A stretch of DNA of 64,000 bases from Allomyces macrogynus ATCC 38327 (lineage: Eukaryota; Blastocladiomycota; Blastocladiomycetes; Blastocladiales; Blastocladiaceae). The notes beneath the pieces are model-generated. The model made no database searches. It saw only the letters and a list, made by a program, of their open reading frames with translations, and was not told the DNA's origin. Where the stretch lies: contig GG745329.1 in assembly GCA_000151295.1 (NCBI GenBank), forward strand, positions 584,421-648,420, given 5' to 3'. Made by a program: the position numbers and the translations under genes. Positions within the stretch are counted from its first letter, which is position 1, and each line of letters opens with the position of its first letter. This document shows, piece after piece, positions 4,655 to 11,230 of this stretch.

Positions 4655-5481
4655 TCACGAGCGAAATGGACTCACTGCAAACCCCACATCGAACCGCACC
4701 GGTGCAGTCTTGCGCGGTGTTGGTGCAGGAGACGCGACCACGGTACGTGCGTCGGGCGAGTTGAGCGCGTCTTGGATCTCGCTCTCCTTTTGCGCCCAGT
4801 CAATCACGCCAACCGATTTCCGACCGCGGAGCGAGACCTAATTTGTGATCGTCGTGAGAACGAGGGCAATGCCGATCACCGATTCCACTCGGTCGCCGCG
4901 CACCTTGGAGCGCCTTGCAGACCGCTGCGGCGTCGTAACCGCCAGCAACTCGTCATCGTGCAATCCCAGCGCCGCCGCGGCCGCTGCCGGGGATGCAGCT
5001 ACGGCCGGGGATGCAGCAAGAGAGCTACTTGCAGCGGGTGCAACCACCACCGGGGTCGCGTGACGGACGGGCCGCCGGCGCATCGGCAAAGGTTCGTCCT
5101 CGTCGAGGTCGCTCAATGGGCTGTCGGAAACGTCGAGATCACTCAATGAGCTATCGCTAGCCTGGTCACCGTGCCGCCTCGGGGACCGGGTCGGCGTATC
5201 GGGCGCGCGTGGGCGCTTGTTTCTCCGCGGCACGGGCGTCTCGGCGACGGCGGGGCTCGAGTGCGCGTCGGTCTAGCGTCCGACACGGCAAAAGGTAAGC
5301 CTCTAAGTTGAGACCACGACGGCCGTTGCGGGCCGTTGAGAGGCTCGCGTCATGAACGAGAAATAGCATAAGGTGTGCTGACCTTGCGGCGCTTGGCCGA
5401 GGGGGTCCGAATCTCGTCGGTGCTTGGCCTGATCCGCGACGGGCTGGCCGCGGTTGTGGCGGTGGAGAAAGAGTCGTGCAT
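4655..5481 (-). CDS. Unrecognised nuclear-looking protein, Ser/Asp-rich
   Basis: I do not recognise the family. A three-exon model (5481-5383, 5272-4904, 4837-4655), all with phase 0 junctions, gives about 216 aa. Exon 1 is Ser/Thr-rich and ends with the basic cluster AKRRK, a possible nuclear signal. Exon 2 has several TP/SP dipeptides, basic patches and a doubled motif SDSSLSDLD / SDSPLSDLD, then an Ala/Val-rich stretch. Exon 3 carries the most ordered segment, RGRKSVGVIDWAQKESEIQ, and ends PVRFDVGFAVSPFRS. The 66-nt second intron is partly open in frame. The TP/SP sites suggest a CDK substrate, by inference only. An extra GTGAGT donor just before the stop could allow a slightly different C-terminus. 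Confidence 0.55.
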
Positions 5482-5834
5482 GGCGCAGTGCGGAAAGTCA
5501 GTAGCGGCAATGCTTGCAGTCAATTGCAGGTCAGCGCGGCAAGTGGCAAGTTGTCGCTGTCGTCGGTTCGTTTGTGAGCGAAGAAGCAAAAAGGACGAGG
5601 AGGCCAGTCGCGAAACACACCAACTCATTCCCACGTGCCCTCAAATCACACGTCCTTGCCGCATAAGCTCCAAAGATGACGTCGTCTGGTCATTTTGTTC
5701 GCGGTGATGACCGGGGAGCAACCGTGGAGCGCCGTGGAACACCATGGAGGGTTGCGGAACCGTGGAGCACAGCAGAGTATTGATATTATCTGTACAAGAA
5801 GCGAGGACCGAAAGCAAACACCGCAGCACCATGA
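5482..5834. other. Intergenic region, upstream of the Ser/Asp-rich gene
   Basis: Lies between the start of the unrecognised minus-strand gene and the stop of the SPX-SerB gene, so it should hold the promoter of the first and the 3' UTR of the second. I see nothing else in it. Confidence 0.5.
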
Positions 5835-7936
5835 TCACGGCGTGTTCATGAGCGTCGACACGTCCTCGTCCGAGTATCCGAGCAGGTAGAGCACGGCCGT
5901 CAGGCTGTTCTGGTTGATGCGCGTGCGCGCGCGCTCCTGCACCTTGGGCTTGGCGTTGAATGCGATCCCCAGGCCGGCGGCCGCGAGCATCCACAGGTCA
6001 TTGGCACCATCGCCCACGGCAATCACTTGCTCGGGCGAGATATTCTCGGCCTGCGCAATCACCTCGAGCAACTCGGCCTTGCGCTCGCCCGTGACAATCG
6101 GCCCCACTGTCTCGCCCGTCAGCTTGCCATCGGGCCCAACGCGCAACTGATTGGCAAACGCATAGTCGAGCCCGAGCTCGGCCTTGACGTAGTTGGCCAG
6201 GGGGATAAATCCACCGGAAATCACGGCCAGCTTGTATCCGAGTTTTTTGAGACACCTGCACAGTTCGCGCGCGCCCGGGTTGAACGTGATCGTGGCGCGC
6301 ACCGCGTCCAGGACCGTCGCGGGCGTGCCCTTGAGCAGTGCGACGCGCCGGCGCAACGACTCGGCAAACGCAATCTCGCCACGCATTGCCGACTCGGTAA
6401 TGGCCGCGACCTTGTCGACGACGCCGGCATGCCGCGCAATTTCGTCAATCACCTCCTGCTGAATCAGCGTCGAGTCCATGTCAAACACGACGAGCCGCTT
6501 GGACCGGCGGAAGACATTGGCCTCTTGCAGCGACACGTCGGTGCCGTGCGTGCGCGATAGCGCAAACAGGTCGGCGCGGAACACGTCCACATCCACGTCG
6601 CGCGGGACCGACAGCTTGTAGTCGACAGAGGTCATGGCGCCGGCCAGCGCCGAGTTGAGCCGCGCCATGCGTTCCACGGAAATGCGGTAAGTCAGCAGCA
6701 TTTTGGTGAAGTCGTTGAGGAACGCGGGCGTCAGACCGCGTTGGTTGAGCACGGTCGCCGCGTACTTGACGCGGTTGTCGTAGGGCGCGTCCTCGAGCGA
6801 CGGCGGCAGCGTCTTGGCGTCCTGCGCGTCAAACAACAGGTTCGCGTTCCACCGCTTGGCGGTCGCCGTTAGATCCTTGACAAAGGCCACGTCGAGCGGC
6901 GGCGACGCCGGCAGTTGCACGAGCACGGCAAACGTGACGTGGTGGTGCAAGCGCGCAAAGCTGAAGTCGTCGACGCGCAAGTTCGCCTTGCTGATGCACT
7001 CGAGCAATGCGGCAATGATATCGGTGCCGTGCGGGCCCGACATGGTGATGAGCACGCGCTGCGACGGCAAGAGCGCGGCGGGCGGGAACCACGGCGTCGG
7101 CGTCTTGCCCTCGCGCAGCAGCGGGACGGAACTCGACGGGCGGCGGTCGACAGCATCGTCCCCCGTGCCGTTACCATCCGCAACGGTCATGACTTGCGAC
7201 GTCGAGCCCATTTGGCGCGACGCGCGCAGTTGCGATGCCGGGCTCACGGGCGGGATAATCGGCGAATCCAGGTTGAATTCGGCCACACCAGCCAGCGACG
7301 CGAGCAACGAGGCCTTGAGCTCGGCCAACTTGTTGTTGTGGTAGAACCGGTGGCCGCGCGTCAGCTGCATCATGTAGGACTCAGCAATGTGCGGTCCCGC
7401 ACCCGACAGTCGCGCGTACTTTTTCAAAATCTTGGCGACACCCGTCAAGTTGAGAACTGCGTAGGATTCGAGCTTTTGCACGCTGCGCAGCGCTTCCTGG
7501 GCCTTGTCGGCGGGCAGTGGCTGGTCGGCGCTCGCGGGCAAGTAGAGCTTGAGGAGCCGGTCCTCTTCGGCCTCGTAAAAGGCTGAGACGACAGCGACCT
7601 GCTCGTCGAGCATCAGGAAGAATTCTTTGGTCTGCTCAGATCATCAGGGAGGGCCAGATTCGAGGTCAGCCGCTATTCAGCACGGCGCAATTGCAGCAAC
7701 GCGCCGGCACGCACCGCAACGGCAAGTGTGGCCAAATGGCGCGACGCAACGGCACCAACGTCAAACGGCGTCACGGCCTCGCCCTCGACGGACGCGAGGT
7801 GCGGCAAGGTGGACAGCGAGGCCGACGCGACCGTCTGCTTGAGCAGCAGCTTGAGGCGCCCATAGTCGAGGAACGCGGCCGCGTAGTTAGCCGGAAAACT
7901 CGCACGCTTGGCGAGCAGCGTGTTGCCAAACTTCAT
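5835..7936 (-). CDS. SPX domain-phosphoserine phosphatase (SerB) fusion
   Basis: Two exons: 7936-7715 and 7631-5835, phase 0 junction, about 672 aa. The N-terminus is an SPX domain split by the intron: MKFGNTLLAKRASFPANY and LDYGRLKLLLK in exon 1, then EFFLMLDEQ, LNLTGVAKILKKYARL (about residues 134-149) and the last helix HRFYHNNKLAELK in exon 2. After a linker come two ACT-like domains (about 265-345 and 360-440) and a HAD phosphatase: VFDMDSTL (about 456-463, catalytic Asp pair), SGGF (about 546) and VGDGANDLWML (about 613-623). This is the SerB2-like ACT-ACT-HAD order, which makes serine and phosphate from phosphoserine. SPX domains bind inositol pyrophosphates and report phosphate status. 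The exon 2 frame is open throughout, so SPX end and phosphatase are one polypeptide. The yeast enzyme Ser2 has no SPX. Confidence 0.88.
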
Positions 7937-8701
7937 GGTCGCAGTGCGCGCGAATCGATGGTCGAGGGGCGCGTCGTGGAAGGTGCCGACGAGTTGAAGG
8001 TCAAGAGCTGGCCGTGGAGCTCGCTGCAATCAATCGCTGCAATCACTATGCGCTGACCAAGTCGGGTGTCGCGCTTGCTGGAGAAATAGGCCCGCCGCGC
8101 GAGAGAGAGCGCGCCAAGCACGTTGTCCTTGCGCTGGAGTCCCGTCGTGGTTCGCGCAGGTGCGCAGGGTCGCGCATGGCCACTTGTGCGGTGATTGATC
8201 AACGTGGTGGTTCTTTTCGGGCGCGCCCGGACAAACGTGTTGATTACTGCACGTGCCAGTGATGCATAGTGCTGCGCTACGGAAAATCATGCATACGCCG
8301 TGGCTCAGCGGTACATATTCGACTAATGCTGTGGCTTGCAGCCTCACATCACACGCCTGCCAGGTGCAAAACCATGGGAACGCGGACGCGCGACCCCGTG
8401 CGTATCAGTGTTGATGGCACCACTGCCTTTACACGGTGATGCACGTGGAACGTGGTGGCGCAGTCACGCCTGTCGCTCTGATCACCTTCGCTCCACTTTA
8501 CATTTCCACTTCGACCTGCTCCGCTTTGGCCTGTCGCGACCCTCGACCCGCGGCGACGCCGGCAACCTCGTCAGCCCAGACTCAATCCGCAATTTACAGC
8601 GGCAAGACACGAGCGTGACCCGCTGCATTCATTCGTCTCTGGACCCGCCCAAAAGCAGCGCATCCCGCCGCTGCAGTGATCTCGGCCCAACCAGCTCGTG
8701 C
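7937..8701. other. Divergent intergenic region (SPX-SerB / CysRS promoters)
   Basis: The SPX-SerB gene reads leftward and the CysRS gene rightward from this stretch. The CysRS frame is open upstream to 8336, but that part contains no family-like sequence. No TATA box is evident. Confidence 0.5.
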
Positions 8702-11230
8702 ATGTTTGCGCGGCGCCTGCTCTCGCGCCCAACCTCGACCCCGACCGTACTCTGCCTGCTCCGGCCTGCTGCTGCCGTTGCTGCTACTGCTCCGCGTCTC
8801 GCCACGCCCGTAACGACGCTCTTGACCCGCGCCACCATGTCCATTTCGGCCCCGACCGCGGCTTCGGCCGCCGCGACCACCTCCACTCCGCGCCAGCCGG
8901 CGTGGCACCAGCCCGCACCCAAGGCCGAGGTGCCCGTGCTCAAGATCTACAACTCGCTCACGCGGCAAAAGGAGGTCTTCACACCCGCGAATGGCCGCCA
9001 GGTGACGTGGTACAACTGCGGCCCGACCGTCTACGACGCCGCGCACATTGGCCACGCGCGCCTCTACATGACCGTCGACGTGCTGCGCCGTGTCCTCGAA
9101 GAGTACTTTGGCTACGACGTGCTGCTCGTCATGAACATTACCGACATCGACGACAAGATCATCTTGCGTGCGCGGCAAACCTACCTGTTTGACCAGTTCC
9201 GCAACCAGCACGTCGAGTCTGGGAAGGGCCTGACTGACGACGTGCGCGAGCAGGTGACGGAACTGTGGAAGACGTATGTCGCGCGCACGTTTGGTGACGC
9301 CGCCGCGCACGCGTGGCCAAAGTTCTACACCAAGGCCGTCATGGAGCAGACGGGCGATCTTGTCGTCGACGCCAAGCGCGTGCTCAAGCTCAAGCAGGCC
9401 GCTGCCGCGTACGACGCGCTCCAGCAGCACGCCAAGGTACAGTCGGTCGAGGCGCTCGAGACGGTGCTCGCTGCGTCGCGCGACATTATCGCGACCGCGC
9501 TCGACGTGAACCTCGGGCACACGGTCACCGATCAGCAAGTCTTCCGCGACTTTGCCGCCTTCTGGGAAGATGATTTCCTCAAGGACATGGACGGTCTCGG
9601 TGTGCGCGCACCCGACGTGCTCACACGCGTCTCCGAATTCGTCCCGGAAATCATCACGTTCGTCGAGCAAATTGTTGCCAACGGGTACGCCTACGAGGCC
9701 GACGGGTCCGTCTACTTTGACACGCGCGCGTTCCACGCGAACCCGAACCACCACTACGCCAAGCTCGAGCCGTGGTCGGTCAATTCCGAGGCGTTGCTTG
9801 CCGAGGGCGAGGGCGACCTGTCGACCAACTTGACGCACCGCAAGCGCGCACCCGCTGATTTCGCGCTCTGGAAGAAGTCCAAGACGGGCGAACCGTTTTG
9901 GCCGTCGCCGTGGGGTAACGGCCGCCCTGGGTGGCACATCGAGTGCTCGGTTATGGCCTCGGCCGTGACGGGCACGCAGCTCGACCTGCATTCGGGCGGG
10001 ATCGACCTGGCGTTCCCACACCACGATAACGAGATTGCGCAGTCCGAGGCGCATTTCGGGTGCGACCAGTGGGTCAACTACTTTATGCACGTCGGCCACT
10101 TGCACGTCGAGGGCCAAAAGATGTCCAAGTCGCTGAAGAACTTCTTTTCGGTCAAGGACGCGCTGCAGCAGTACAAACCGTCGACGCTGCGCATGATGTA
10201 CCTGCAGCAGCACTGGCAGGGTGGGATGGACTTCAAGGCCGCGACCGCGCAGGAGGCCATGGCCGCGGAAGCGACGCTGCGCAATTTCGCGACCAATGTC
10301 CGCGCGCTGCTCGCCGACTACCGCGCCAACCCGCCGGCGTTCACGGGCGCACATGATTTCCGCAAGGGCGAGGCCGACTTGCTTGCGCACTTACAGTCGA
10401 GCCAGGCGCGCGTGCATGCGGCGCTCTGCGATAACTTGCACACGCCCGCGGCCATGGACGCCTTGCTCGACCTCGTCTCCAAGACCAACGTCTACCTGCG
10501 CAACGTCGAGGCCGCCAAGCAGCACGCCAACGCTTACCTCGTCGCTAAGGTCGCCAAGTACGTCACGCGCATGACCAAGATTTTCGGGCTTACCGAGCAG
10601 GGCGCCGAGATCGGGTACGGGTTCCCGGAATCCGACGCCGAGTCGGCGGCCGCGGGTGGCGCGTCGCGCGACGAAGTCGTCTTGCCGTATGTGCAGGCCC
10701 TGTCCAAGTTCCGCGACGACGTGCGTGCCGCGGCACGCACCGGTGGCAGCGACCTTGCGACCACGGTCCTGAAACTGTCTGACCAGGTGCGCGACGACGT
10801 GCTTCCGGACCTCGGTGTTGCGCTCGACGATCGTGATGGTGGCCGCGCGCTCGTCAAGCTCGTTGACCCGGCGCAGCTGCGCGCCGAACGTGCCGAGAAA
10901 AAGGCGCGCGAGGCCACCAAGCCGGCTGCCAAGGCTGAGGCGGCGCGCAAGGCTGCGGTCAAGAAGCTCGAGCGACTCTACAAGGGCCGTTTCTCGCCCA
11001 AGGACCTGTTCAAGGGCGACGAATACGGCAAGACGGATGCCGACGGCGTGCCGACCCACGATGCCAAGGGCGAGGAGCTGCCCAAGGCTCGGCGCAAGAA
11101 GCTTGCCAAAGAGTTTGATGCGCAGCGCAAGTTGCACGACGAGTACTTGGCCGCGATCAAGGAGGGGAAGATTGATTGGGCGCCGCTGCGCGACGAGTAT
11201 GCAGCCAAAGGCGAGAAGCTCGACGTCTAG
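8702..11230 (+). CDS. Cysteinyl-tRNA synthetase, probably dual-targeted (mitochondrial and cytosolic)
   Basis: A single open frame, 842 aa from the ATG at 8702 or 797 aa from the ATG at 8837. It charges tRNA-Cys. The class I signature HIGH is in DAAHIGHARLYM and KMSKS is in EGQKMSKSLKN. Zinc-site residues are visible in YNCGPTVYD, WHIECSVMAS and HHDNEIAQSEAHFGC. The length and the insert before EPFWPSPWG fit the eukaryotic cytosolic type. The C-terminal third is Lys/Glu/Ala-rich. The longer form begins MFARRLLSRP, a typical mitochondrial presequence. The second start, MSISAP, sits in GCCACCATG, a strong Kozak context, whereas the first has T at -3 and T at +4. No intervening ATG exists in any frame. 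This suggests leaky scanning gives both products. No introns are needed. Confidence 0.93.
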   Translation: MFARRLLSRPTSTPTVLCLLRPAAAVAATAPRLATPVTTLLTRATMSISAPTAASAAATTSTPRQPAWHQPAPKAEVPVLKIYNSLTRQKEVFTPANGRQVTWYNCGPTVYDAAHIGHARLYMTVDVLRRVLEEYFGYDVLLVMNITDIDDKIILRARQTYLFDQFRNQHVESGKGLTDDVREQVTELWKTYVARTFGDAAAHAWPKFYTKAVMEQTGDLVVDAKRVLKLKQAAAAYDALQQHAKVQSVEALETVLAASRDIIATALDVNLGHTVTDQQVFRDFAAFWEDDFLKDMDGLGVRAPDVLTRVSEFVPEIITFVEQIVANGYAYEADGSVYFDTRAFHANPNHHYAKLEPWSVNSEALLAEGEGDLSTNLTHRKRAPADFALWKKSKTGEPFWPSPWGNGRPGWHIECSVMASAVTGTQLDLHSGGIDLAFPHHDNEIAQSEAHFGCDQWVNYFMHVGHLHVEGQKMSKSLKNFFSVKDALQQYKPSTLRMMYLQQHWQGGMDFKAATAQEAMAAEATLRNFATNVRALLADYRANPPAFTGAHDFRKGEADLLAHLQSSQARVHAALCDNLHTPAAMDALLDLVSKTNVYLRNVEAAKQHANAYLVAKVAKYVTRMTKIFGLTEQGAEIGYGFPESDAESAAAGGASRDEVVLPYVQALSKFRDDVRAAARTGGSDLATTVLKLSDQVRDDVLPDLGVALDDRDGGRALVKLVDPAQLRAERAEKKAREATKPAAKAEAARKAAVKKLERLYKGRFSPKDLFKGDEYGKTDADGVPTHDAKGEELPKARRKKLAKEFDAQRKLHDEYLAAIKEGKIDWAPLRDEYAAKGEKLDV

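Follow-up and report, generated by a model that had tools for sequence, protein, structure and literature searches.

An SPX domain joined to a predicted two-ACT phosphoserine phosphatase in Allomyces macrogynus

Introduction

Can a receptor domain of phosphate signalling be built directly into an enzyme of amino-acid biosynthesis, and might it then govern that enzyme? The question is raised by a locus within a stretch of 64,000 nucleotides from the genome of Allomyces macrogynus (the whole of which is referred to here as 'the window'). The SPX outputs described in the available portions of the literature comprise the transport and export of phosphate, the synthesis of polyphosphate, SPX-RING proteins and the control of transcription, and the accessible parts of papers on dinoflagellates and on phosphate evolution list SPX partners without SerB. 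No description of an SPX-SerB fusion was found, by title or abstract opening, among the literature matches listed (a set that subscription papers mostly fall outside, so that one may have been published), nor was any paper on SPX in Allomyces found in the literature searched. Nothing among those matches contradicts the original prediction on the point that no characterised enzyme has this architecture. The parts of the protein are known; their combination appears to be new. If SPX acted on a soluble enzyme of amino-acid biosynthesis, phosphate signalling would reach into central carbon, nitrogen and one-carbon metabolism. Since the receptor sits in the same polypeptide as a phosphatase, whose activity is simple to read out, the purified protein would also be a convenient system for examining how ligand binding at SPX is relayed to an enzyme.

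Gene structure and domain organization

The gene consists of two exons on the minus strand (Table 1), which together specify a single protein of 672 residues. The second exon occupies most of a frame of 601 open codons, extending from 7640 to 5835, and the AG acceptor before 7631 places it back in frame with exon 1; an in-frame TAG inside the intron would stop an unspliced message. The exon and intron coordinates originally predicted proved correct, with the ATG, donor, acceptor, phase and stop all fitting, and the two exons are presumably joined in the cell.

Table 1. Coordinates of the SPX-SerB gene and its predicted domains in the window
Feature	Position	Strand	Description
Exon 1	7715..7936	minus	SPX N-terminal part, residues 1-74 (MKFG..., LDYGRLK); ATG at 7936
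Intron	7632..7714	minus	83 nt, GT-AG (GTGCGT...GAGCAG), phase 0; donor after 7715
Exon 2	5835..7631	minus	rest of SPX, linker, ACT1, ACT2, HAD phosphatase; stop ends at 5835
SPX C-terminal part	7299..7631	minus	residues 75-185; whole SPX approximately 1-185
Linker	7068..7298	minus	residues 186-262; pLDDT mostly <50 in model
ACT1	6822..7067	minus	approximately residues 263-344; HGTD replaces D-x-P-G
ACT2	6522..6770	minus	approximately residues 362-444; from M. avium SerB2 alignment and model secondary structure
HAD-IB phosphoserine phosphatase domain	5838..6500	minus	residues 452-672; DMDSTL, SGGF, K592, GDGANDL

Comparison of the spliced protein with Pfam returned SPX (PF03105, E 2.8e-10; 41.2 bits, above the gathering cut-off of 27.8), ACT_6 (1.4e-8) and HAD (3.1e-24), and the exon-2 frame matched the NCBIfam serB equivalog TIGR00338 with 280 bits against a cut-off of 144.15, the profile being covered over positions 1-219 of 219. 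The catalytic motif set of HAD phosphatases consists of DxDxT, a serine, a lysine and GDGxND; all are found in the exon-2 frame, as DMDST, SGGF, K521 (K592 of the protein) and GDGAND, and frame residues D387, D389, S475, K521, D544 and D548 are invariant across 16 alignment rows. Only one ACT domain is named by Pfam, and the second was recognized from a continuous alignment with the two-ACT SerB2 of Mycobacterium avium and from a structure model, in which two beta-alpha-beta-beta-alpha-beta units precede the HAD domain as tandem ACT folds. That model, which covers the exon-2 part, also contains three long helices in the SPX portion (block pLDDT 54-71); no SPX chain stands among the structure matches listed for it, which says little, since a single domain takes up that listing and the model's SPX is truncated. 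No membrane domain was reported by Pfam in the protein, a search of a viral sequence collection with the pattern gave no match, and an Rfam scan over positions 5000-9000 returned nothing above the gathering score. These matches mark the protein as the phosphoserine phosphatase of this fungus, with predicted activity at the final step of serine synthesis by the phosphorylated route.

A second copy of the gene

A homeolog with the same two-exon layout and intron position is located on contig C68 of the genome (53,996,887 bases in 75 contigs), and duplicated segments were observed in the genome. The exons of the two copies align without a gap over 2019 columns, with 656 of 672 residues identical (73 of 74, again gapless, in exon 1). 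Nucleotide identity is 91-96% across four exon stretches, 75% (with 15 gap columns) in the intron and 73-79% across three flanking stretches; the flanks and the intron contain insertions and deletions, and the intron, bounded by GT-AG in both copies, is 78 nucleotides long on C68. Gapless exons set between a diverged intron and diverged flanks indicate one selected coding gene that contains an intron. The ratio of dN to dS between the copies (Nei-Gojobori) is 0.056 for SPX residues 1-185 (5 replacements), 0.027 for the ACT region, 0.019 for the HAD domain and 0.184 for the linker, which is the fastest-changing part; at the level of codon substitution these rates demonstrate purifying selection on the gene, its SPX part included. 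The fusion of SPX, two ACT domains and SerB, as originally predicted, is thus borne out by the spliced frame, the domain matches and the presence of two gene copies.

The two copies have the same genes next to them. One neighbour is a peptidase M3 frame, identified by Pfam in each copy; the opposite neighbour is a frame resembling cysteinyl-tRNA synthetase, identified by Pfam in the window and by an NCGPTVYD stretch on C68. In the window the latter frame (8327-11230, plus strand; PF01406, 2.3e-115) is of the cysteinyl type and divergent from the SPX-SerB gene, and the order on C68 is the same.

Recognition of the SPX domain and its ligand pocket

When the first 36 residues of exon 1 were compared with the SPX N-terminus encoded by an SPX-RING gene from this genome, a reference picked after the N-termini had been seen, the score was 56; the runner-up among 918 methionine-started 36-mers of the window scored 16, and none of 100,000 shuffles reached 56. 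Of four further SPX N-termini, two gave local scores that 155 of 2000 and 92 of 2000 shuffles attained. Pfam reported nothing for exon 1 alone, for the homeolog's exon 1 or for the whole frame of exon 1, and a six-frame SPX scan of the genome reported the homeolog's exon 2 and not the window copy. Derivation of the SPX part from another SPX gene of the genome was considered and set aside, as tblastn gave weak, mixed matches with no clear donor.

In rice SPX1, InsP6 is contacted by Y25, K29, K147 and K151, and in the accessible text of that report a Y25F/K29A/K151A triple mutant lost binding while K147A had little effect (PMC8639918). Alignment with OsSPX2 and with part of OsSPX1 gives these four residues identical counterparts in the Allomyces protein, namely Y25 (codon 7864-7862) and K29 (7852-7850) in exon 1, and K141 (7433-7431) and K145 (7421-7419) in exon 2, the latter two within LNLTGVAKILKKY. 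The OsSPX2 chain likewise carries Y and K at positions 25 and 29, and KILKKY occurs in both rice chains; because K147 and K151 are spaced four apart, they correspond to the first and last lysines of KILKK, and so to K141 and K145 here. Among the helix 1 contacts of OsSPX1 (M1, K2, F3 and K5), the place of K5 is taken by N. For yeast VTC, the portion of the report consulted describes effects at the equivalents Y19/Y22, N121 and K127 (PMC10167327); by motif reading the places of Y22, N and K appear to be kept in SPX-SerB, with F at that of Y19. With the main residues of the inositol phosphate pocket intact, gating of SPX-SerB by inositol pyrophosphates is plausible, and the proposal can be tied to particular residues.

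The first ACT domain and serine feedback

From cocrystals, a 2023 study of SerB2 hypothesised, in the part available, that L-serine contacts D17 and I126 of M. avium SerB (PMC10564941). In our alignment D17 falls on frame residue H204, that is, H275 of the protein (frame residue 192 corresponding to residue 5 in the numbering of the entry), and the D-x-P-G loop of ACT1 reads H-G-T-D in both gene copies. For comparison, 17 of 24 bacterial and archaeal loci were used, yielding 16 usable frames (L049 failed the motif filter), 15 of which contain ACT1 (L036 is truncated). Asp occupies the D17 place in all 15 relatives and the P-G pair follows in 14 (L046 has P-T). Replacement of the motif at the proposed serine site means that serine sensing of the SerB2 kind should not be assumed, and the amino-acid (serine) feedback through the ACT pair that had been proposed for this protein is weakened accordingly. 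As the comparison set holds no unfused fungal SerB, the change in ACT1 may be older than the fusion.

Relationship to known SerB enzymes and SPX proteins

When 40 serB places in the 54-Mb genome were scored, the family cut-off was passed by two, both of them the SPX fusion (window and homeolog). The third best, on C26 (32.7 bits, DFDQTLT), reads as another HAD hydrolase and was rejected as a separate, unfused SerB; the rest score below it, and a gene split by many introns could escape such a scan.

Relative to SerB2 (M. avium 3p96 and 5jlp, and M. tuberculosis SerB2), the Allomyces protein possesses an additional N-terminal SPX domain and linker, and it differs from the M. avium enzyme in the HGTD sequence of its ACT1 loop. 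Its best matches in the contig collection are bacterial two-ACT SerB enzymes (labelled Myxococcales, Desulfuromonadales, Deltaproteobacteria and others), and those bacterial loci that span ACT-ACT-HAD are 37-45% identical to it over the best segment. None of the 24 bacterial and archaeal loci reaches the SPX part, the matches starting at frame residue 147 or later. With the SPX receptors (OsSPX1/2, VTC, PHO1/XPR1, SPX-RING and Gde1) the protein has in common an N-terminal SPX domain with the Y-K-K-K pocket, but the known partners are a transporter, a polyphosphate polymerase, a ligase and a phosphodiesterase, whereas here the partner is an enzyme of amino-acid biosynthesis.

Allosteric control through a domain attached to an enzyme of serine synthesis has a precedent in the ACT-regulated phosphoglycerate dehydrogenase, SerA. 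That enzyme, which is also mentioned in the available portion of PMC10564941, belongs to the same pathway and embodies the same principle; in SPX-SerB, by contrast, the ligand would be an inositol pyrophosphate and the step the last rather than the first.

SPX genes, inositol phosphate kinases and the serine pathway in the genome

Other SPX genes of the genome carry RING and ankyrin-GDPD partners in one frame, and EXS and CitMHS-type partners in adjacent frames; on C56 an SPX frame directly precedes a VTC frame. VTC-DUF202 genes are present in two copies (C53:483823-484611 and C56:459727-460515). Upstream of the C56 copy lies a frame with the end of an SPX domain, and none was seen in three further frames scanned at the C53 copy.

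An IPK-family kinase (PF03770) on C72 contains PCILDLKMGTRQHG, which we take to be the mark of an IP6K; among solved chains its closest are IPMK (E 1.4e-17) and then IP6K (1.2e-7). The IP6K-like kinase domain (C72:1232442-1233149) resides within an unusually long open frame of 2798 codons. A search with the PPIP5K N-domain (PF18086) gave no match in the genome, nor in the controls. A SerC-like gene is present (E 4.3e-107, below the curated cut-off), as are SerA-like genes, including a C51/C67 pair with a weak ACT-like C-terminus that is likewise below cut-off.

Possible roles of the SPX domain

The reading that we favour, with a confidence only somewhat better than evenly balanced, is that phosphate status, conveyed by inositol pyrophosphates, would control the last step of serine synthesis in cis. 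Inositol pyrophosphates, reporting phosphate status, would bind the pocket formed by Y25, K29, K141 and K145; binding would alter the packing of the SPX bundle on the ACT-ACT-HAD body by way of the long linker; and the change in packing would affect oligomer state or access to the active site, and with it the rate of serine formation and phosphate release. Binding, coupling and the direction of control are all steps that we infer. Consistent with control in cis are the presence of the fusion in two copies with the same intron position, the SPX dN/dS of 0.056, the retention of the pocket, the identity of the only SerB above cut-off with the fusion, and the occurrence of an IP6K-like kinase, SPX genes and SerA-like and SerC-like genes. 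Arguing against it are the substitution of N for K5, the modest SPX score, the lack of a Pfam match for exon 1 alone, an SPX dN/dS above those of the ACT and HAD regions, and the closer similarity of the kinase to IPMK than to IP6K; the long, low-confidence linker of the model may also provide little mechanical coupling.

As to direction, restraint of the enzyme in the ligand-bound, phosphate-replete state and its release on ligand loss in the phosphate-poor state is slightly more likely, because the reaction is a source of phosphate; the opposite sign, with activation during phosphate-replete growth, is nearly as likely. Serine synthesis, as a phosphate source, has been predicted in the accessible part of one report to rise in phosphate limitation (PMC7864628), and a SerB restrained by inositol pyrophosphates at high phosphate and freed at low phosphate would give that rise. 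The altered ACT1 site would be compatible with a shift of control to the SPX domain. That control of serine synthesis moved, in this fungal lineage, from serine feedback at ACT to phosphate status at SPX is possible but rather doubtful; if true, SPX would act directly on a central step of amino-acid synthesis, and that step would serve the cell as a regulated internal source of phosphate.

Several other readings of the same protein were weighed. The SPX domain could instead be an inositol-phosphate-dependent docking or localisation module, which would anchor SerB, itself constitutively active, to a partner or a membrane (for example VTC or acidocalcisomes) and leave its catalysis unchanged. 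Such a role, which we judge unlikely although deserving of some weight, would agree with the ligand-dependent protein contacts through which SPX works in the available account of OsSPX1 and PHR2 (PMC8639918), with the homotypic SPX contact described in the accessible part of a VTC study (PMC10167327), and with the long low-confidence linker; no partner is known, however, and one would be needed, given the lack of a Pfam membrane domain. A quite improbable alternative is that the SPX part now has no ligand-regulated role and is carried along as a fused element of structure or stability. The modest score, the K5N substitution and the weak similarity to the other SPX domains of the genome would all be expected of it, but the pocket retains all four of its main residues, and the SPX dN/dS of 0.056 is set against 0.184 in the linker. 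The long open frame formed by exon 2 on its own might also suggest two adjacent genes or an artefact of the gene model, with exon 1 in a separate message and exon 2 encoding an ordinary SerB. Yet the intron splits the SPX domain itself, the second copy preserves its splice sites and phase although the intron there is 5 nucleotides shorter, and the exons are alike in coding composition (third-position GC of 0.81 for the first and 0.82-0.85 for the second); this reading, to which we assign very little probability, was rejected on the strength of the second copy and its intron.

Other receptor-enzyme fusions in the genome

Two copies of a 2-hydroxyacid dehydrogenase (PF00389, PF02826), at L024:526-2178 on C58 and L025:1444-2925 on C61, both carry, in one frame, an N-terminal cyclic-nucleotide-binding domain (PF00027, 2e-10); this is another sensor-enzyme fusion. 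Fusions of rhodopsin to guanylyl cyclase are known from the Blastocladiomycota, and one is encoded in a single frame on C63 (L031:1186-2889), where the four solved chains that match with E below 1e-30 bear the names nucleotide cyclase or rhodopsin/guanylyl cyclase fusion protein.
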